From Promethearchaeota archaeon (lineage in GTDB: Archaea; Asgardarchaeota; Lokiarchaeia; Sigynarchaeales; SOKP01), in the NCBI GenBank assembly GCA_030608765.1, contig JAUWDN010000034.1, positions 1 through 7,745 of the forward strand: 7,745 nt of DNA, read 5' to 3'. Positions 181 to 7,745 of this stretch are shown here, one piece after another. The notes under the pieces are model-generated. The model did no database searches. It saw only the letters and a program-made list of their open reading frames with translations, and was not told where the DNA came from. Every line of letters begins with the position of its first letter. Position 1 is the first letter of the stretch. The translations under genes were made by a program, and so were the position numbers.

Positions 181-1356
181 ATTAATATAAAATATGCTTA
201 TAGAATAAACAAACTGCCTGTATACATTTTTGCTGAAATTGAACAAATAATAAATAAAAAGAAATTGGAAGGGGTTGACTTAATTCCATTAGGTATAGGT
301 GATCCCGATTTAACGACCCCCGAACTGATTATAACCGAGATTATAAAACAAGTAAAAAATCCCGAAAATCAAAATTACCCAACAAGTATGGGTGAACAAG
401 ACTTCAGAGAGGCTGTACAAAGGTGGTATAAAGTAAGATTTAATTTGGATTTCGATGCAAACGATGAAGTAACTAATTTAATCGGAGGAAAGGAAGGAGT
501 AGCAAATATCGCTAGAGCATTTGTTAACCCAGGAGATATCGTGTTATGCCCGAATCCCGGATATCCAGTTTATGAAAATGGTGCTACTAAGCTTTGTGAC
601 GGAAAAGCATATCTAGTCCCATTATTAGAAGAAAACAATTTTTTACCGGACTTTGATGCAATTGACGCAGAAATCCTCAAAAAAGCTAAATTAATGTATT
701 TGAATTACCCCAATAACCCTACAGGGGCAATAGCACCTAAAGAATTCTTAAAATTGGCAGTAGATTACGCTGAAGATTATAAATTTCTCATTGTTTACGA
801 TAATCCTTATTCAGAGTTCACATATGGAGACTACATTGCTCCGTCGCTTTTAGAAATAGATCAGAATCATGTTGAAATAAATAGCGCATCAAAAATGTTT
901 TGCATGACCGGATTTAGGTGTGGTTGGGCAGTTGGCCATAAAGATGTCATTACAGGAATAAGAAATGTAAAGTCTCATATTGACTCTGGTTGTCCAAGGT
1001 TTATACAAAAGGCAGTAGCTAAAGGTTTAAATGAATATACATCCCACGAAAAACCAAAAATTGTAAAAGAAATTGTTAGAACATACGAAAGAAGGCGGGA
1101 TGTGCTAATAAAGGGGCTCAATAATATCGGATGGAAAACAAAAAAACCTAAAGCAACTTTTTTCATCTGGACTCACATACCAGAAGGAGAAACTGATAGT
1201 ATGGATTTTGTGAAAAAGTTAATTGATAAAGGAGTAATTCTAACGCCTGGTATTGGTTTTGGCAAATTTGGAGAAGGTTTTGTGAGATTTGCCTTAACTC
1301 AACCAATTGATAAAATAAGAGAAGCTTTAGAAAGAATTGAAAGAATACTCAATTAG
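181..1356 (+). CDS. dapL: LL-diaminopimelate aminotransferase-type PLP enzyme, apparent ATT start
   Basis: This is a fold-type I PLP aminotransferase. DapL enzymes transfer the amino group of glutamate to tetrahydrodipicolinate, giving LL-diaminopimelate for lysine synthesis in the cytosol. Numbering from ATT 181 (391 residues, normal for the family): LGIGDPDL near 36-43, the NYPNNPTG loop at 175-182, the PLP-pyridine Asp in VYDN at 207, the Schiff-base Lys in SASK at 238, and the substrate-carboxylate Arg in VRFA at 369. The frame stays open upstream of the TTG at 265 back to a TAA at 178. Those 28 codons read as the conserved family N-terminus (YRINKLPVYIFAEIE), so the TTG start would truncate a real part of the protein. 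No ATG, GTG or TTG exists there; ATT 181 follows an SD-like GGTG. No other lysine gene is in the window. A related aminotransferase specificity is possible. Confidence 0.85.
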   Translation: MNIKYAYRINKLPVYIFAEIEQIINKKKLEGVDLIPLGIGDPDLTTPELIITEIIKQVKNPENQNYPTSMGEQDFREAVQRWYKVRFNLDFDANDEVTNLIGGKEGVANIARAFVNPGDIVLCPNPGYPVYENGATKLCDGKAYLVPLLEENNFLPDFDAIDAEILKKAKLMYLNYPNNPTGAIAPKEFLKLAVDYAEDYKFLIVYDNPYSEFTYGDYIAPSLLEIDQNHVEINSASKMFCMTGFRCGWAVGHKDVITGIRNVKSHIDSGCPRFIQKAVAKGLNEYTSHEKPKIVKEIVRTYERRRDVLIKGLNNIGWKTKKPKATFFIWTHIPEGETDSMDFVKKLIDKGVILTPGIGFGKFGEGFVRFALTQPIDKIREALERIERILN

Positions 1357-2632: not shown

Positions 2633-3955
2633 ATGAATAAAAGAATCGTTCTAATTGGGGCTGGTAGCACCTCTTTTGGGCCTTCTACTTTTTTAGATCT
2701 TTACCAGAGCAATTATCTACAGGGATCAACAATAGTCTTACACGATATCAACAAAGAACACTTAGAAGTTATTTATGAATTAATTGGGGCTGAAAACAAG
2801 ATACATAATAATAAATTCAACATTGAAAGCACTATAAATCGTGAAGAAGCATTAAATGGAGCAGATTTCGTTATAAGCTCAATAGAGGTTGGAGAACGCT
2901 TTAAATTATGGAGAGAAGACTATGAAATTCCTAGAAAGTATGGATCGACTCAAATACTAGGCGAATGCGGGGGGCCAGGAGGTACTATGCACGCTTTTAG
3001 AATAATTCCTCCCATTTTGGAGATTGTTAAAGATGTGAATAAAATTTGTCCTGATGCATTTTTCATAAATTTTTCTAATCCTATGGCGAGGGTATGCTTG
3101 GCTATTAAAAGAACAGCTCCAAATCTTAAATTTATTGGACTTTGCCATCAAATCGGAGATTTGAATTATCATTTACCTCTTATGCTCAAAAAGAAATTGG
3201 GAAATTTAAAATTGATGCCCTATGGATTAAATCATTTTGGATTTTTGATGGGTCTCGAAGAACTACCTTCTGGAAAAGACTTGATGCCTGAGTTTAACAA
3301 AATAGCATTAGAATATTTCAATCAACACAAAGATAAGTTTCAATTTTCTACTTTAACACTTGAGGTTTATAAAAGATTTAGATACTTTCCCTATGTAAGC
3401 GATACCCACCTTGGTGAATACTTACGGTTTGGTGAAGAATTTACTGAAACATCGGATATGACAGATTGGATTGATAGAACTGAAAAATTTGGTGAGATGA
3501 TTTATAAACGTGTTATGAGAAACTTTAAGCGCTTTAAAGAAGGAAGATATCGCAAAAAAGGAATGTTCTATAAAGGAACATCAGGAGAAAGAGCAATTCC
3601 TATAATCGAAGCAATTATTTCTGACAGTAATTCTTATGAAAGCGCAGTTAATGTTCCAAACGATAATATCATCGAAAATTTATCTCAAGATCTTGTTATT
3701 GAGTGCCCAGTAATAGTTAATAAGAGTGGTGTAAAAGGAGTTAAATGGGGTAAATTACCACGTGATATTGCTGCAATACTTCGTATTGAAGCTTCGATCC
3801 AAGATTTGTGTGTTGAAGCAATTCTTCATAAATCAAAAGACTTAGCAATCGCAACCTTAGCTATTGATCCCAATGTGGGTAGTTTCGAGATGGCGGAAAA
3901 AATATTTAACGAAATGAGAGAGAAACAAAAAGAATTCATTCCCAATTTTCAATAA
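2633..3955 (+). CDS. Glycoside hydrolase family 4 enzyme (alpha-galactosidase/alpha-glucosidase/alpha-glucuronidase type)
   Basis: GH4 enzymes cleave glycosidic bonds by an NAD+-dependent oxidation-elimination mechanism that needs a divalent metal such as Mn2+. The 440 residues are a full family length. The N-terminal Rossmann dinucleotide site is IVLIGAGSTSFG (5-16), followed by the Asp of LHDIN (about 38). Further signatures are GADFVISSIEVG (76-87), GGPGG (113-117), the SNP motif with Asn149, GLCHQIG with metal-ligand Cys171, LNHFG with metal-ligand His201, and SDTHLGEYL (256-264). The substrate cannot be fixed from sequence: the motifs fit the alpha-glycosidase branch better than 6-phospho-beta-glucosidases. 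There is no signal peptide, so it should act on imported sugars in the cytosol. The start is the only sensible ATG; the preceding AAAGAAG is a weak SD. It stands alone between a palindromic promoter region and a hairpin/T-run, so it is probably monocistronic. Confidence 0.92.
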   Translation: MNKRIVLIGAGSTSFGPSTFLDLYQSNYLQGSTIVLHDINKEHLEVIYELIGAENKIHNNKFNIESTINREEALNGADFVISSIEVGERFKLWREDYEIPRKYGSTQILGECGGPGGTMHAFRIIPPILEIVKDVNKICPDAFFINFSNPMARVCLAIKRTAPNLKFIGLCHQIGDLNYHLPLMLKKKLGNLKLMPYGLNHFGFLMGLEELPSGKDLMPEFNKIALEYFNQHKDKFQFSTLTLEVYKRFRYFPYVSDTHLGEYLRFGEEFTETSDMTDWIDRTEKFGEMIYKRVMRNFKRFKEGRYRKKGMFYKGTSGERAIPIIEAIISDSNSYESAVNVPNDNIIENLSQDLVIECPVIVNKSGVKGVKWGKLPRDIAAILRIEASIQDLCVEAILHKSKDLAIATLAIDPNVGSFEMAEKIFNEMREKQKEFIPNFQ

Positions 3956-4102: not shown

Positions 4103-5044
4103 ATGAAATCTAATAAAAACGGAAGCTCTGAAGGTAAAATTGAAAAAGCCACCGAATTGCTCTGGAAAATATGGTGGTTTAGTTTCTATTTAATTATAGT
4201 GCCTTCCTTAGTCGCTGTAGTAGGTTTTTTCATTTTCTTCTTTATTGGAAAAGACATTTATGTCTCAATTGGTTTATCAGTTATAACTTTCATGTTTGTT
4301 CTGTTGTTTTTCTATAAAGCATTTGATAAATATAGAGATAATCCATTTTTCCTAAACACAAAAAATAACCTTTCTGCTAGAATCAATATACTTTTCTTAA
4401 TTACAATTTTAGCCTTGATTGTAACTCCTATTTTCGTTATTTTGACTCCAGGAGACAATTATTTTGAACTCTTACCTTTAATTTCATTTATCGTATTATA
4501 TAATATTGTATATTATTATTACTACAACCAACCTATAGATATTTTTGATTTTGTTGTAGAAAAATACAAACATGAAATACCTATTTCTCAGTGGATTAAA
4601 AAACCACATAATTTTATAATACTCGTTAATTACATCATTCACATCGTATTTCTGTCTTATACTTTTGATACGAAAATATCATGGTTGTTTCCACTTGTCT
4701 CGAATATCATATTTTATCTTATTTCTCGACTAACAACCATGAAGACCATAAAGGTTTTATCTACATCAAATAAAAATAGCAACGAATTTTTACTGGAGTT
4801 AACTAAATATAAGAAAAAGTTTGTAAATTCTATCCTAGGTTTAACATTCGCATTATTGATTCAAATGCCATTTGCAATAACCTTGATCTTTATTTTCATG
4901 GGTATTCAACACGAAATCATAGAAATTATTACAATCTCGATTTTATCTCTTATCTTATTATTATTCTACTTTAAAATCAGATTGTATATAAGTTCGTTTT
5001 ATAGCAAAATTCTCAGGAGGTTTGAAATCGATGAATTCGAGTAA
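4103..5044 (+). CDS. Polytopic membrane protein of unknown function, 313 aa, about 8 helices
   Basis: I do not recognise a named family. A hydrophilic N-terminus of about 20 residues is followed by roughly eight hydrophobic segments: 24-49, 51-71, 93-114, 122-141, 170-187, 192-208, 243-267 and 272-290. They form four hairpins separated by Lys/Arg-rich loops (72-92, 142-169, 209-240) and a basic tail (291-313), which puts the loops and both ends inside by the positive-inside rule. No catalytic or transport motif is visible. The last hairpin begins KKKFVNSI, similar to KKFTNTI in the downstream giant protein, and the hairpin architecture is the same, so the two may share an origin. The downstream gene overlaps it by 14 bases, implying co-transcription and perhaps a common complex. 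Confidence 0.85.
   Translation: MKSNKNGSSEGKIEKATELLWKIWWFSFYLIIVPSLVAVVGFFIFFFIGKDIYVSIGLSVITFMFVLLFFYKAFDKYRDNPFFLNTKNNLSARINILFLITILALIVTPIFVILTPGDNYFELLPLISFIVLYNIVYYYYYNQPIDIFDFVVEKYKHEIPISQWIKKPHNFIILVNYIIHIVFLSYTFDTKISWLFPLVSNIIFYLISRLTTMKTIKVLSTSNKNSNEFLLELTKYKKKFVNSILGLTFALLIQMPFAITLIFIFMGIQHEIIEIITISILSLILLLFYFKIRLYISSFYSKILRRFEIDEFE
5015..5021 (+). promoter_or_regulatory. Ribosome binding site of the giant membrane protein
   Basis: AGGAGGT lies nine bases before the ATG at 5031 and inside the coding sequence of the upstream membrane gene. It fixes the start of the downstream frame and shows that the two are arranged for translation from one mRNA. Confidence 0.75.
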
Positions 5045-7745
5045 TTCTGAAGAAGTTGAATTAGATAAGAGCAATAGGTATCAAAAGCTAAATTTGTTCG
5101 TTTCGATTCTATTAATTCTACTAACTCTTTTAATTTCTTTATTGAACAACGCTCCTGTTATAATATTCCTTTCCTTACCCGCAATGTTCGTTCTCACATA
5201 TTACGAAGAAAAATTGAATTTTACTCTTAAAATTTATAGTAGATATATATATTTGATTAATTGCTTAGTAGTCCTAGCCTTATTAGTATTCTGGATATTC
5301 CCAGCATACCTTGGGATAACGCTCATAAATATACAGTTTATTATTTTTTGCTTATCACTTTATTTCATATTTCAAATTTTTATGAAACTAGGTTATTTTA
5401 AGGAGAAAAATGTTCTAGTCTTACAGAATATTCTTGCTGTTACTTGTTTTACTATAATTTTATATTCATTCTTTCCTCTTGTTGAATTCGTATACATTAA
5501 TTTTACTGTGGATCCAATTTTAATTTTAATTTCTGAAGTATTGATCCATTCGATTATAGTTTTGATAATTACATTAATTTCGTTTTATTTCTTATATGCA
5601 CGTGTCCATTTGTATGAAAAACCCTGGAAACTTTTTAATACTTGTGTAATAACCGTATTTTTGTTGATTGAATTGATCGGGTTTACATTAATCAACTTAA
5701 AAAATATCGTTTTAGGAGTTCCTGGTTTAATTCAAACAGATTTAATTATATCAACAATTTTCCTTTCAATTGCGTTTCTTTCATTTATACTATTTAATTA
5801 TATCATTAAGGTATTTTCTCGTGAAACCAGTTTATTTTATAGCTATATTACTTTCTGGTTTTTAAGCTTCTCCATTTTCATTGTACTTCTAGCCCTCTAT
5901 TGGAATAATTATGTTATCATATTATTTGATTCAATCTTTTTTACGATTTTATCGCTAATAAACCTAAAATTTGGAACTGTTATTAATAAAATAGAAGAAA
6001 CTACATTCTTAAAGATCGCTAAAATTTATTTTTACGCGCTCTTGCTTGAGATTTTCCTCTTATTTTGTGGTATATTCAATTTGCTTTTTATGTTAGATCT
6101 GTTTATTACTCTGTTTCTTTCATTTTGCATTATTGGAGTGATTCTTAATCTTTTATCTTCGTACGAGAAACTTGTTTCAAGAAAAATGAAATTAGTTTTA
6201 ACATCCTTCATTTTCGCATTTGACATATATGTTGTTGGATTTTATTTTACAGAAGCTAATATTGACTATTTCTATTTTTATCTTGTTGCTCCCATTGTTT
6301 TTTGCCTTTTATTGTATGCTCCCATATACTATCTTTATAAAGAGGATGTGATAAAACCTAAAGTTCTAGCTTTATATAGTTACACTTCCTCATGGGTGAT
6401 AGCGGTTTTAATTTTCGTTTTAAATTTTTTTATCATTAACATTTATTTTAGCGCCGATATCGTATTAGGGACGCTATTAAACGTTTTATTCTTTACTTTT
6501 TGTCTAGTTCTTCTCATTTCGTTTGGAAAGAAAATAAAAAGGATAAAGGAATCGTCTTCTAAGTTTCTCTTGAATATCTTAAGTTATCCTATCATTATTG
6601 AAATTTTTGTTCTACTTTTTACCGTTTTTACAATTTATTTGCGTTTTGATGTGTTCTTATCGTCTTTCTTATCGCTATCTATAATTAGCATTATTTTTTA
6701 CCTGTTATCAAAGGAAGAGAAATTACTTCCTAAATTTCCGGCAATGATACTAATCACAATCACACTTTACTATGGTATTATTATTGCAGGATATTATGGC
6801 GTTATCTTCACAATTGGAACTTTCTTTATGTATTTCATACCACTTATTATTGTTTGCATTCTTTCGTATATTCCTATTTTTTATTTGTATAAAAAAACTG
6901 TTTTAAGTCATAATACATTCCTAAGTTATCATTTCTATTGTTCTATTATCATATCTCTGGCTATTTTTATCTTTAATTTCTTTGTTATTATTAACTTCTT
7001 TAATATCTTCTTAATCATATTAATTCTCTTCAATATTCTTTATATCTCCGTTGTTTCTTATTATATTTTTAAATTCGGAGCAAAAATAAACTTATTATCA
7101 ACTGAATCCTTTAAAAAATTTACGAATACCATCAACTACTTTATCATTTTAGAGATTTATGCAATATTGTTTTCAAATTTTAACCTAGTATTTCTAATAG
7201 AGCCCATTTTATCAGCTTACTTCTCGACTATTCTAATTTGCTTCCTCATCAATATTTTATCAAAAAATAGAATTATCTTTACAGAGAAGAGTGCGATTGG
7301 ACTTAATATATTAGCTTTAAGTTTCACTAGTGTTTTAAGCTCTTACTACATATATTTAATTGTTTATAACTCGGTTTTTGTACTTGTTATCCCATTGTTA
7401 GTGTTTAGTTCATTAATGCTACTTCCTTTGTTTTATACCTCTAGCAAGAAAGTTTTTAGCAAACTCGTAGAAAAAATCATATTGATAGACAGCTTGCTAA
7501 TATCTGCGTTAATAATGGCCCTCCCATCGATAATAGGATTGGAGTTAATCAGATTTGGGATGGTTATTGATTATTATTTTATTATCAATGGAACAGAACG
7601 GGTACTAGTGACACAAGAGGATTTAGCTCCAAATAGAATATTAGCCGAAGAAGCTAGCCGAAGTTCAAGTGCTACACACCAAGCAAAAGTATTTTCCACG
7701 AGAAGTGGTTTTAGAGCACCAGTAACTATAGAAAGAAAGAAAGAT
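5031..7745 (+). CDS. Giant multi-spanning membrane protein with tandem six-helix repeats (3' end outside window)
   Basis: The frame runs from ATG 5031 for 905 codons to the last base without a stop, so the gene is cut by the window edge. I followed it line by line and found no interruption. A polar N-terminus (1-21) is followed by about 27 hydrophobic helices in pairs. Charged loops (Lys/Glu/Arg) start near residues 59, 119, 191, 260, 320, 380, 437, 500, 561, 621, 681, 745 and 806, a spacing of mostly 57-64. From about 255 onward three hairpins make a 184-residue unit present three times. Matching positions include Phe-Gly 314/498/682, Tyr 335/519/703, Glu 340/524/708, Asn 465/649 and Pro 604/788 and 615/799. 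After the last helix (about 824-843) comes a hydrophilic tail rich in Arg, Ser and Lys. No known family, enzyme motif or signal peptide was recognised. It probably acts with the upstream membrane protein. Confidence 0.9.
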   Translation, partial: MNSSNSEEVELDKSNRYQKLNLFVSILLILLTLLISLLNNAPVIIFLSLPAMFVLTYYEEKLNFTLKIYSRYIYLINCLVVLALLVFWIFPAYLGITLINIQFIIFCLSLYFIFQIFMKLGYFKEKNVLVLQNILAVTCFTIILYSFFPLVEFVYINFTVDPILILISEVLIHSIIVLIITLISFYFLYARVHLYEKPWKLFNTCVITVFLLIELIGFTLINLKNIVLGVPGLIQTDLIISTIFLSIAFLSFILFNYIIKVFSRETSLFYSYITFWFLSFSIFIVLLALYWNNYVIILFDSIFFTILSLINLKFGTVINKIEETTFLKIAKIYFYALLLEIFLLFCGIFNLLFMLDLFITLFLSFCIIGVILNLLSSYEKLVSRKMKLVLTSFIFAFDIYVVGFYFTEANIDYFYFYLVAPIVFCLLLYAPIYYLYKEDVIKPKVLALYSYTSSWVIAVLIFVLNFFIINIYFSADIVLGTLLNVLFFTFCLVLLISFGKKIKRIKESSSKFLLNILSYPIIIEIFVLLFTVFTIYLRFDVFLSSFLSLSIISIIFYLLSKEEKLLPKFPAMILITITLYYGIIIAGYYGVIFTIGTFFMYFIPLIIVCILSYIPIFYLYKKTVLSHNTFLSYHFYCSIIISLAIFIFNFFVIINFFNIFLIILILFNILYISVVSYYIFKFGAKINLLSTESFKKFTNTINYFIILEIYAILFSNFNLVFLIEPILSAYFSTILICFLINILSKNRIIFTEKSAIGLNILALSFTSVLSSYYIYLIVYNSVFVLVIPLLVFSSLMLLPLFYTSSKKVFSKLVEKIILIDSLLISALIMALPSIIGLELIRFGMVIDYYFIINGTERVLVTQEDLAPNRILAEEASRSSSATHQAKVFSTRSGFRAPVTIERKKD
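5808..7445 (+). repeat. Three tandem protein repeats of about 184 residues (6 helices each) within the giant membrane gene
   Basis: Cut at the Lys that starts the same loop type, the copies are residues 260-436 (177), 437-620 (184) and 621-805 (185). Each contains three helix hairpins, with a loop of type YLYK, then KFG/SFG followed by an E-T/S-rich loop, then SSYEK/LSKEE/LSKNR. The second and third copies share the clearest strings: PI-YLYK, F-x-x-NFF-x-I, FG-x-KI, then E-S near KF, and later a P-I/L...P-I/L-F/Y-Y pair. The DNA has diverged too far to show the repeat by eye, so the duplication is old. Residues 1-255 contain further, more diverged hairpins. Confidence 0.7.

Follow-up and report, generated by a model that had tools for sequence, protein, structure and literature searches.

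The 7,745-nt stretch of Promethearchaeota DNA analysed here (the window) encodes roughly the N-terminal third of a giant, uncharacterised Asgard membrane protein, the ORF of which is truncated. The N-terminal part of this protein carries a real 184-residue repeat, and the giant family matches no known protein family that our searches could find. We believe that the giant is almost certainly a hairpin-array protein, embedded nearly throughout in the membrane, with an N-terminal piece of 313 aa that is encoded separately in the window.

The giant ORF starts at ATG 5031 on the forward strand (TTG 5022 is the alternative start listed) and is still open where the contig ends. The initial annotation took it as a 905-residue protein, which has to be corrected. 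Window residues 849-905 were identical at 57/57 positions to positions 158-214 of P0014, an RNA polymerase subunit B, and this tail only also matched the subunit B family NCBIfam NF007175, with an E value of 7.9e-20. The full-length relatives P0039, P0037, P0036, and P0038 had 96.7%, 95.3%, 80.6%, and 78.1% identity, respectively, to window residues 1-852, and all four of these inspected proteins contained membrane sequence, not RNA polymerase, beyond residue ~852. The 97%-identical relative extends to 2709 aa, and the closest relatives are approximately 2710 aa long. Because the relatives run on as membrane sequence and the tail is subunit B, we read the window end as a contig-end chimera in which a 57-codon segment encoding RNA polymerase subunit B (7575..7745, +) stands in frame with the giant; the two proteins have a few residues in common (YFII) at the join, at about 7575-7586. 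Residues 1-852 (5031..7586, +), with 27 predicted helices and the N-terminus inside, were therefore treated as the genuine part of the giant. An in-frame RNA polymerase tail of this kind, read here as an assembly chimera, would mislead annotation.

The genuine part (residues 1-852 alone) was compared with itself. At offset 184, the best 180-residue stretch contained 60 identities, which ranked this offset first among 570 (30 to 599); the runner-up was 368 (2 × 184) with 39 identities. In 300 shuffles that preserved the pattern of hydrophobic, intermediate, and polar residues, the mean and maximum at offset 184 were 32.2 and 47, respectively, and 47 was also the highest value across all offsets between 30 and 599. 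The off-diagonal at 184 residues that a self-alignment was expected to reveal was thus found. When a profile of 17 sequences was used, offset 184 scored 94.0, whereas the highest of 30 column shuffles binned by hydropathy reached 25.0. The E value of hhalign was 1.2e-22 with 17 sequences; with 83 sequences, residues 297-474 matched 481-659 and residues 539-679 matched 721-858 with E values of 6.8e-36 and 5.4e-24, respectively. The best of 210 reversed-profile controls had an E value of 2.1e-3 and a score of 27.5, which was exceeded by 42/210 forward comparisons, although these 42, some of them with overlapping segments, are not independent of one another. Judged by both the class-preserving shuffles and the reversed profiles, the self-similarity at 184 residues exceeds the expectation from hydrophobic composition.

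The repeat comprises six-helix unit 1 (5790..6341, +, residues 254-437), unit 2 (6342..6893, +, residues 438-621), and unit 3 (6894..7448, +, residues 622-806), with pairwise identities of 31, 24, and 27% among the three. The recurring residues pointed out in the initial annotation were all correct (Phe-Gly 314/498/682, Tyr 335/519/703, Glu 340/524/708, Asn 465/649, Pro 604/788, and Pro 615/799), and its charged loops about every 60 residues sit within predicted cytosolic loops in 13/13 cases. Its three units in exact register stand as three tandem six-helix units of the same orientation; the exact register fails at the first helix of unit 1, which recurs at +179, not +184, because the start of unit 1 is approximately 5 residues shorter than that of the other units. 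Six helices per unit were obtained by both the topology program and AlphaFold2, the units being compared by helix boundaries only. The helix starts of units 1/2/3 in the AlphaFold2 model were 264/443/627, 294/477/661, 323/507/691, 357/541/725, 384/568/752, and 416/599/782.

The proposed architecture of at least three units holds for the window, but the units make up only about a fifth of the whole protein, and relatives have between 1 and 3 of them. At least one unit was recognised by the unit profile in 83/83 full-length proteins, with three units in 21, two in 11, and one in 51. All 17 window-clade proteins had three units, two of the three matches in P0066 being partial. Between the anchors flanking the repeat region, 6 proteins had a span of 187-195 residues, 35 a span of 320-337, 5 a span of 453-465, and 32 a span of 554-597; the remaining five of the 83 spans were 389, 506, 607, 619, and 832 residues. 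In 12/17 window-clade proteins the span was 558 residues, equal to 190 + 2 × 184. Not all steps are multiples of 184, as spans of 325 and 460 suggest a step of approximately 133. Several proteins with a span of 578-597 residues had one recognisable unit only, so we assumed that the rest is filled by diverged or other hairpins. Since the spans cluster in 78/83 proteins, it seems that the length of the arm changes stepwise and the core stays.

For the unit tree and the conservation counts, hits with an E value >1e-5 or with ≤150 profile positions were dropped, and 131 units were kept, to which the three from the window were added. In the midpoint-rooted tree of these 134 units, the first two units of the window clade formed a group (support 0.81) that also took in early units from a few relatives. 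Unit 3 joined the final units of P0075 and P0078, and another clade showed a separate duplication (20 tips, support 0.999). The unit sequences point to a 184-residue module, present in 1-3 copies, that was duplicated at least twice independently. Conserved positions of the unit include G315 (131/134), S364 (124/134), Y434 (124/131), E340 (121/134), and P431 (118/133). Glu340 of unit 1 (codon 6048..6050, +) is predicted to be embedded in the membrane, and its equivalents are Glu524 (codon 6600-6602, +) and Glu708 (codon 7152-7154, +).

The full-length homologue L001 has 2712 aa and 87 predicted helices. When it was used as the query, 94 relatives were found, 83 of which were at least 2400 aa long (up to 3754 aa); the full-length counts in this study omit the 11/94 relatives shorter than 2400 aa. 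The alignments A3 and A4 held 28 and 31 sequences, respectively. The source names, where given, were Promethearchaeota, Lokiarchaeota, and Hodarchaeota, with the exception of one sediment-metagenome record and one bacterial label, and they describe the giant as a hypothetical protein or a membrane protein of unknown function. A core profile matched 59/227 genomes of the phylum, 58 with a single match and one with two matches on separate contigs, and a protein query at a stricter limit matched 55/227. Open frames of at least 2500 aa were found repeatedly in many independent genomes. In ten further loci, the longest ORFs were 4296, 3938, 3932, and 3508 aa, with approximately 127, 117, 117, and 93 predicted helices, respectively. 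The 4296-aa homologue (L034 3156-16046) lies on a 4.36-Mb contig, probably a near-complete genome. The dN/dS between the window and L001 was 0.21 overall; the values for the three units were 0.26, 0.20, and 0.19. Purifying selection acts on the gene, and most genomes that carry it have one copy. In two genomes (L026 and L028) the giant was fragmented into frames of 1343 + 716 aa and 2065 + 796 aa, respectively, and these pieces may reflect sequencing error, fission, or decay.

Topology was predicted with a simple self-written program, and models were made with AlphaFold2. For window residues 1-852, the program gave 27 helices with the N-terminus inside and 47 K/R residues inside vs. 3 outside. 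The AlphaFold2 model of the window part (31 aligned sequences) had 27 long helices in hairpins, with a pLDDT of 79 and a pTM of 0.41. The earlier count of at least 27 helices is therefore reproduced by both methods for the genuine part, and 87 are predicted in the whole of L001. Among the 83 full-length proteins, 77-117 helices were predicted (median 87), the N-terminus was inside in 82, and the K/R content per loop residue was 0.236 inside vs. 0.043 outside. When one member was shuffled five times, no clear asymmetry remained (0.125-0.137 inside vs. 0.106-0.139 outside), and the same shuffles still yielded 68-76 "helices". Because a shuffled sequence gives so many, helix counts are soft, and the charge asymmetry is the firmer evidence. 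A large soluble domain was absent from the 83 proteins, in which the longest non-transmembrane stretch had a median of 42 and a maximum of 86 residues. A second AlphaFold2 model, of L001 1201-2350, had a pLDDT of 76 and a pTM of 0.43, with low confidence near parts of the conserved core. At pTM values of 0.41 and 0.43 the models do not establish an overall shape, and the term "arms" is accordingly taken from the sequence and not from a structure. The AlphaFold2 models consisted of helical hairpins, and the listed Foldseek matches were all at chance level, mostly helical-repeat proteins with a TM-score ≤0.26; with models of this pTM, a protein such as PIEZO that is missing from the list is not thereby excluded as a fold relative.

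The initial annotation presented the six-helix units as the main feature, but the most conserved part of the protein lies outside the window. Conservation was maximal at L001 1261-1800, with invariant Trp, Pro, Asn, and Gly; a Trp-rich stretch at about L001 1442-1456, with invariant Pro and Asn just after it, is placed on the inner face by the topology program. A second tandem repeat of approximately 260 residues was found in the C-terminal third (region 1836-2363; L001 1836-2004 vs. 2098-2264, E 5e-24), and weaker links connected the middle of the protein with its C-terminal third (L001 894-1079 vs. 1924-2102, E 2e-6).

At the other end, a gene of 313 aa with 8 predicted helices (4103..5044, +) overlaps the start of the giant by 14 nt. 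In 48/83 full-length relatives this piece is fused to the N-terminus of the giant, so we believed that the window clade splits what others make as a single chain. The 313-aa gene matched 50/227 genomes; the giant was also matched in 48 of these 50, and in the other two the match was partial. A Shine-Dalgarno-like AGGAGGT (5015..5021, +) is located 9 nt before ATG 5031, and such a motif precedes the giant in 2/6 split loci checked. From the sequence we infer that translation of the 313-aa gene and the giant is coupled.

The initial annotation had noticed no recognisable transporter motif, and this proved right: the window ORF had no family above the cut-off, and the only notable matches were to RNA polymerase in the tail. 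In Pfam scans of 16 full-length members at E 0.1, no transporter model and no Piezo model was found. The same scan gave zinc-ribbon-type families in 2/16 members, PF16020 in one (E 0.0028), and PF13597 in one (E 0.051); the zinc-ribbon matches in these two giants were the only Pfam matches with E <1e-3 among the 16. A profile search with 17 core segments gave nothing better than E 0.17, and the giant had no PDB sequence match and no convincing fold match.

Some known systems share features with the giant. MFS transporters, LeuT-fold proteins, and mitochondrial carriers usually have two or three repeat copies, often inverted, and 6-14 helices. Like them, the giant has membrane helices in sequence-related repeats, whereas its copies are up to three in tandem and in the same orientation amid approximately 87 helices, with no family match. 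Soluble alpha-solenoids such as TPR and HEAT proteins, the top Foldseek matches, resemble the giant model in having antiparallel helix hairpins in series, but their TM-scores were ≤0.26 among the matches listed, and the giant differs in its hydrophobicity and in loops that are positive on the inside. In PIEZO, arms of serially repeated four-helix transmembrane units are attached to a centre, and there is a large soluble extracellular cap. The giant is likewise a very long polytopic protein with repeated helical units in series, its arms being a reading from sequence; however, its units have six helices and 184 residues instead of four helices, and instead of a cap it has no non-transmembrane stretch longer than 86 residues in 83 proteins. 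According to PMC5880808, mouse Piezo1 has 2547 residues and 38 transmembrane helices, compared with 77-117 predicted helices in the giant, which is archaeal. The Piezo_TM1-24 model (PF24871) exceeded its cut-off in 0/4 genomes and also in 0/14 control genomes, hence without a positive control; three weak matches in the 4 genomes (E 0.65-1.7) were not at the strand and place of the giant. The giant is thus apparently not PIEZO, as three PIEZO features were not found in it, one of them (Piezo_TM1-24) lacking a positive control.

The gene neighbourhood was compared in 23 loci, namely the window, L001, L010, and 20 others picked for long contigs or known matches, not at random. A family 4 glycosyl hydrolase (GH4; in the window 440 aa, 2633..3955, +) was present in 15/23 loci, and a class I/II aminotransferase (363 aa, 265..1356, +) in 17/23. 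This aminotransferase ORF, with a TTG start, is approximately 30 residues shorter than the homologues of 392-396 aa at several other loci, as is that of L001, and the N-terminus of the window copy may have been lost. A Liv/Urt-type substrate-binding protein was found in 11/23 loci; the clusters of its ATPase and of its permease each occurred in 10 loci, and 9 loci had an MFS transporter. The substrate-binding gene starts 162-230 nt downstream of the giant in the 10/11 loci measured (another ORF intervenes in L029). The Liv/Urt-type ABC transporter neighbours belong to one clade, and the neighbours of distant members are mostly different. A WD40-repeat protein (681 aa, L039 4756-6801) is encoded 15 nt downstream of a giant homologue, in the same orientation, and a protein of approximately 180 aa without a Pfam match is found near the giant in 6/23 loci (cluster c8, e.g., L014 14713-15252).

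Long helices, tight outer turns, and positive inner loops about every 60 residues are predicted to form a linear array of transmembrane hairpins, in which six-helix modules (three hairpins, 184 residues) were tandemly duplicated within the N-terminal arm. We propose that two hairpin arms would flank and support a central core rich in Trp, Pro, and Asn in the plane of the membrane. Such arms and core suggest mechanical action in this plane: the protein might be a tension-responsive or curvature-setting membrane scaffold, with the arm length tuned through the gain or loss of hairpins, and with force carried to the centre as in a PIEZO blade. The core would either conduct ions or only anchor the scaffold. 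A mechanical function, drawn by analogy, is possible but doubtful, and the whole explanation, anatomy and mechanical action together, falls somewhat short of an even chance in our judgement. The GH4, aminotransferase, and one-clade ABC transporter neighbours count against it, as they point to uptake or metabolism over mechanics. So do arm-length steps that are not always multiples of 184 and the lack of any mechanosensitive protein among the Piezo_TM1-24 results in 4 genomes and the listed Foldseek matches.

Another reading makes the giant a multi-module transporter or channel, with a pathway through each six-helix unit or through the core; the buried Glu of each unit would bind ions or protons, and the products of the neighbouring ABC, MFS, and GH4 genes would handle the same nutrients. 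We kept this reading because of the buried Glu (Glu340/524/708, predicted intramembrane and Glu in 121/134 units) and the neighbouring ABC operon, whose Liv/Urt-type genes start close downstream in the 10 loci measured. We nevertheless consider it unlikely, as no transporter family was matched by 16 full-length members at E 0.1 or by 17 core segments within the limits of their scan, a unit number of 1 to 3 is odd for a coupled transport unit, and clades differ in their neighbours. The giant might instead be a platform within the membrane on which partner enzymes of envelope or glycolipid synthesis are assembled and kept together, with neither a pathway of its own nor force sensing. Its size, the absence of soluble domains, the conserved Trp-rich segment on the inner face, and the GH4 nearby in 15/23 loci agree with a platform, but no single partner, save the often-fused 313-aa piece, is kept across the clades examined, and we give this idea little credence. 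That hydrophobic composition mimics the repeat, or that the long frames are assembly errors or decayed genes, is very improbable. The window 3′ end is chimeric, shuffles also give many "helices", and the gene is in pieces in two genomes; against this, the repeat exceeds the shuffled and reversed controls, frames of at least 2500 aa recur in many independent genomes, dN/dS is 0.21, and the inside/outside charge bias is strong. An artefact was accepted for the window 3′ tail and rejected for the family, where the controls, the recurrence, and the dN/dS contradict it.

To our knowledge, the 38 helices of PIEZO are the largest membrane helix count of any studied protein. Promethearchaeota are the archaea closest to eukaryotes. 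If the predicted topology holds, the giant would have two to three times the 38 membrane helices per chain given for PIEZO in PMC5880808. Returning to the mechanical reading, we speculated that the giant may be the own force-bearing membrane machine of Asgard archaea, unrelated to PIEZO, with 80 to more than 120 helices, adjustable arms, and a Trp-rich core, which would sense or set tension and curvature, although we regard this as rather unlikely. The finding raises testable questions: how a cell inserts and folds a membrane chain of this length, why the arm gains modules, and whether the giant shapes the membranes of Promethearchaeota cells.
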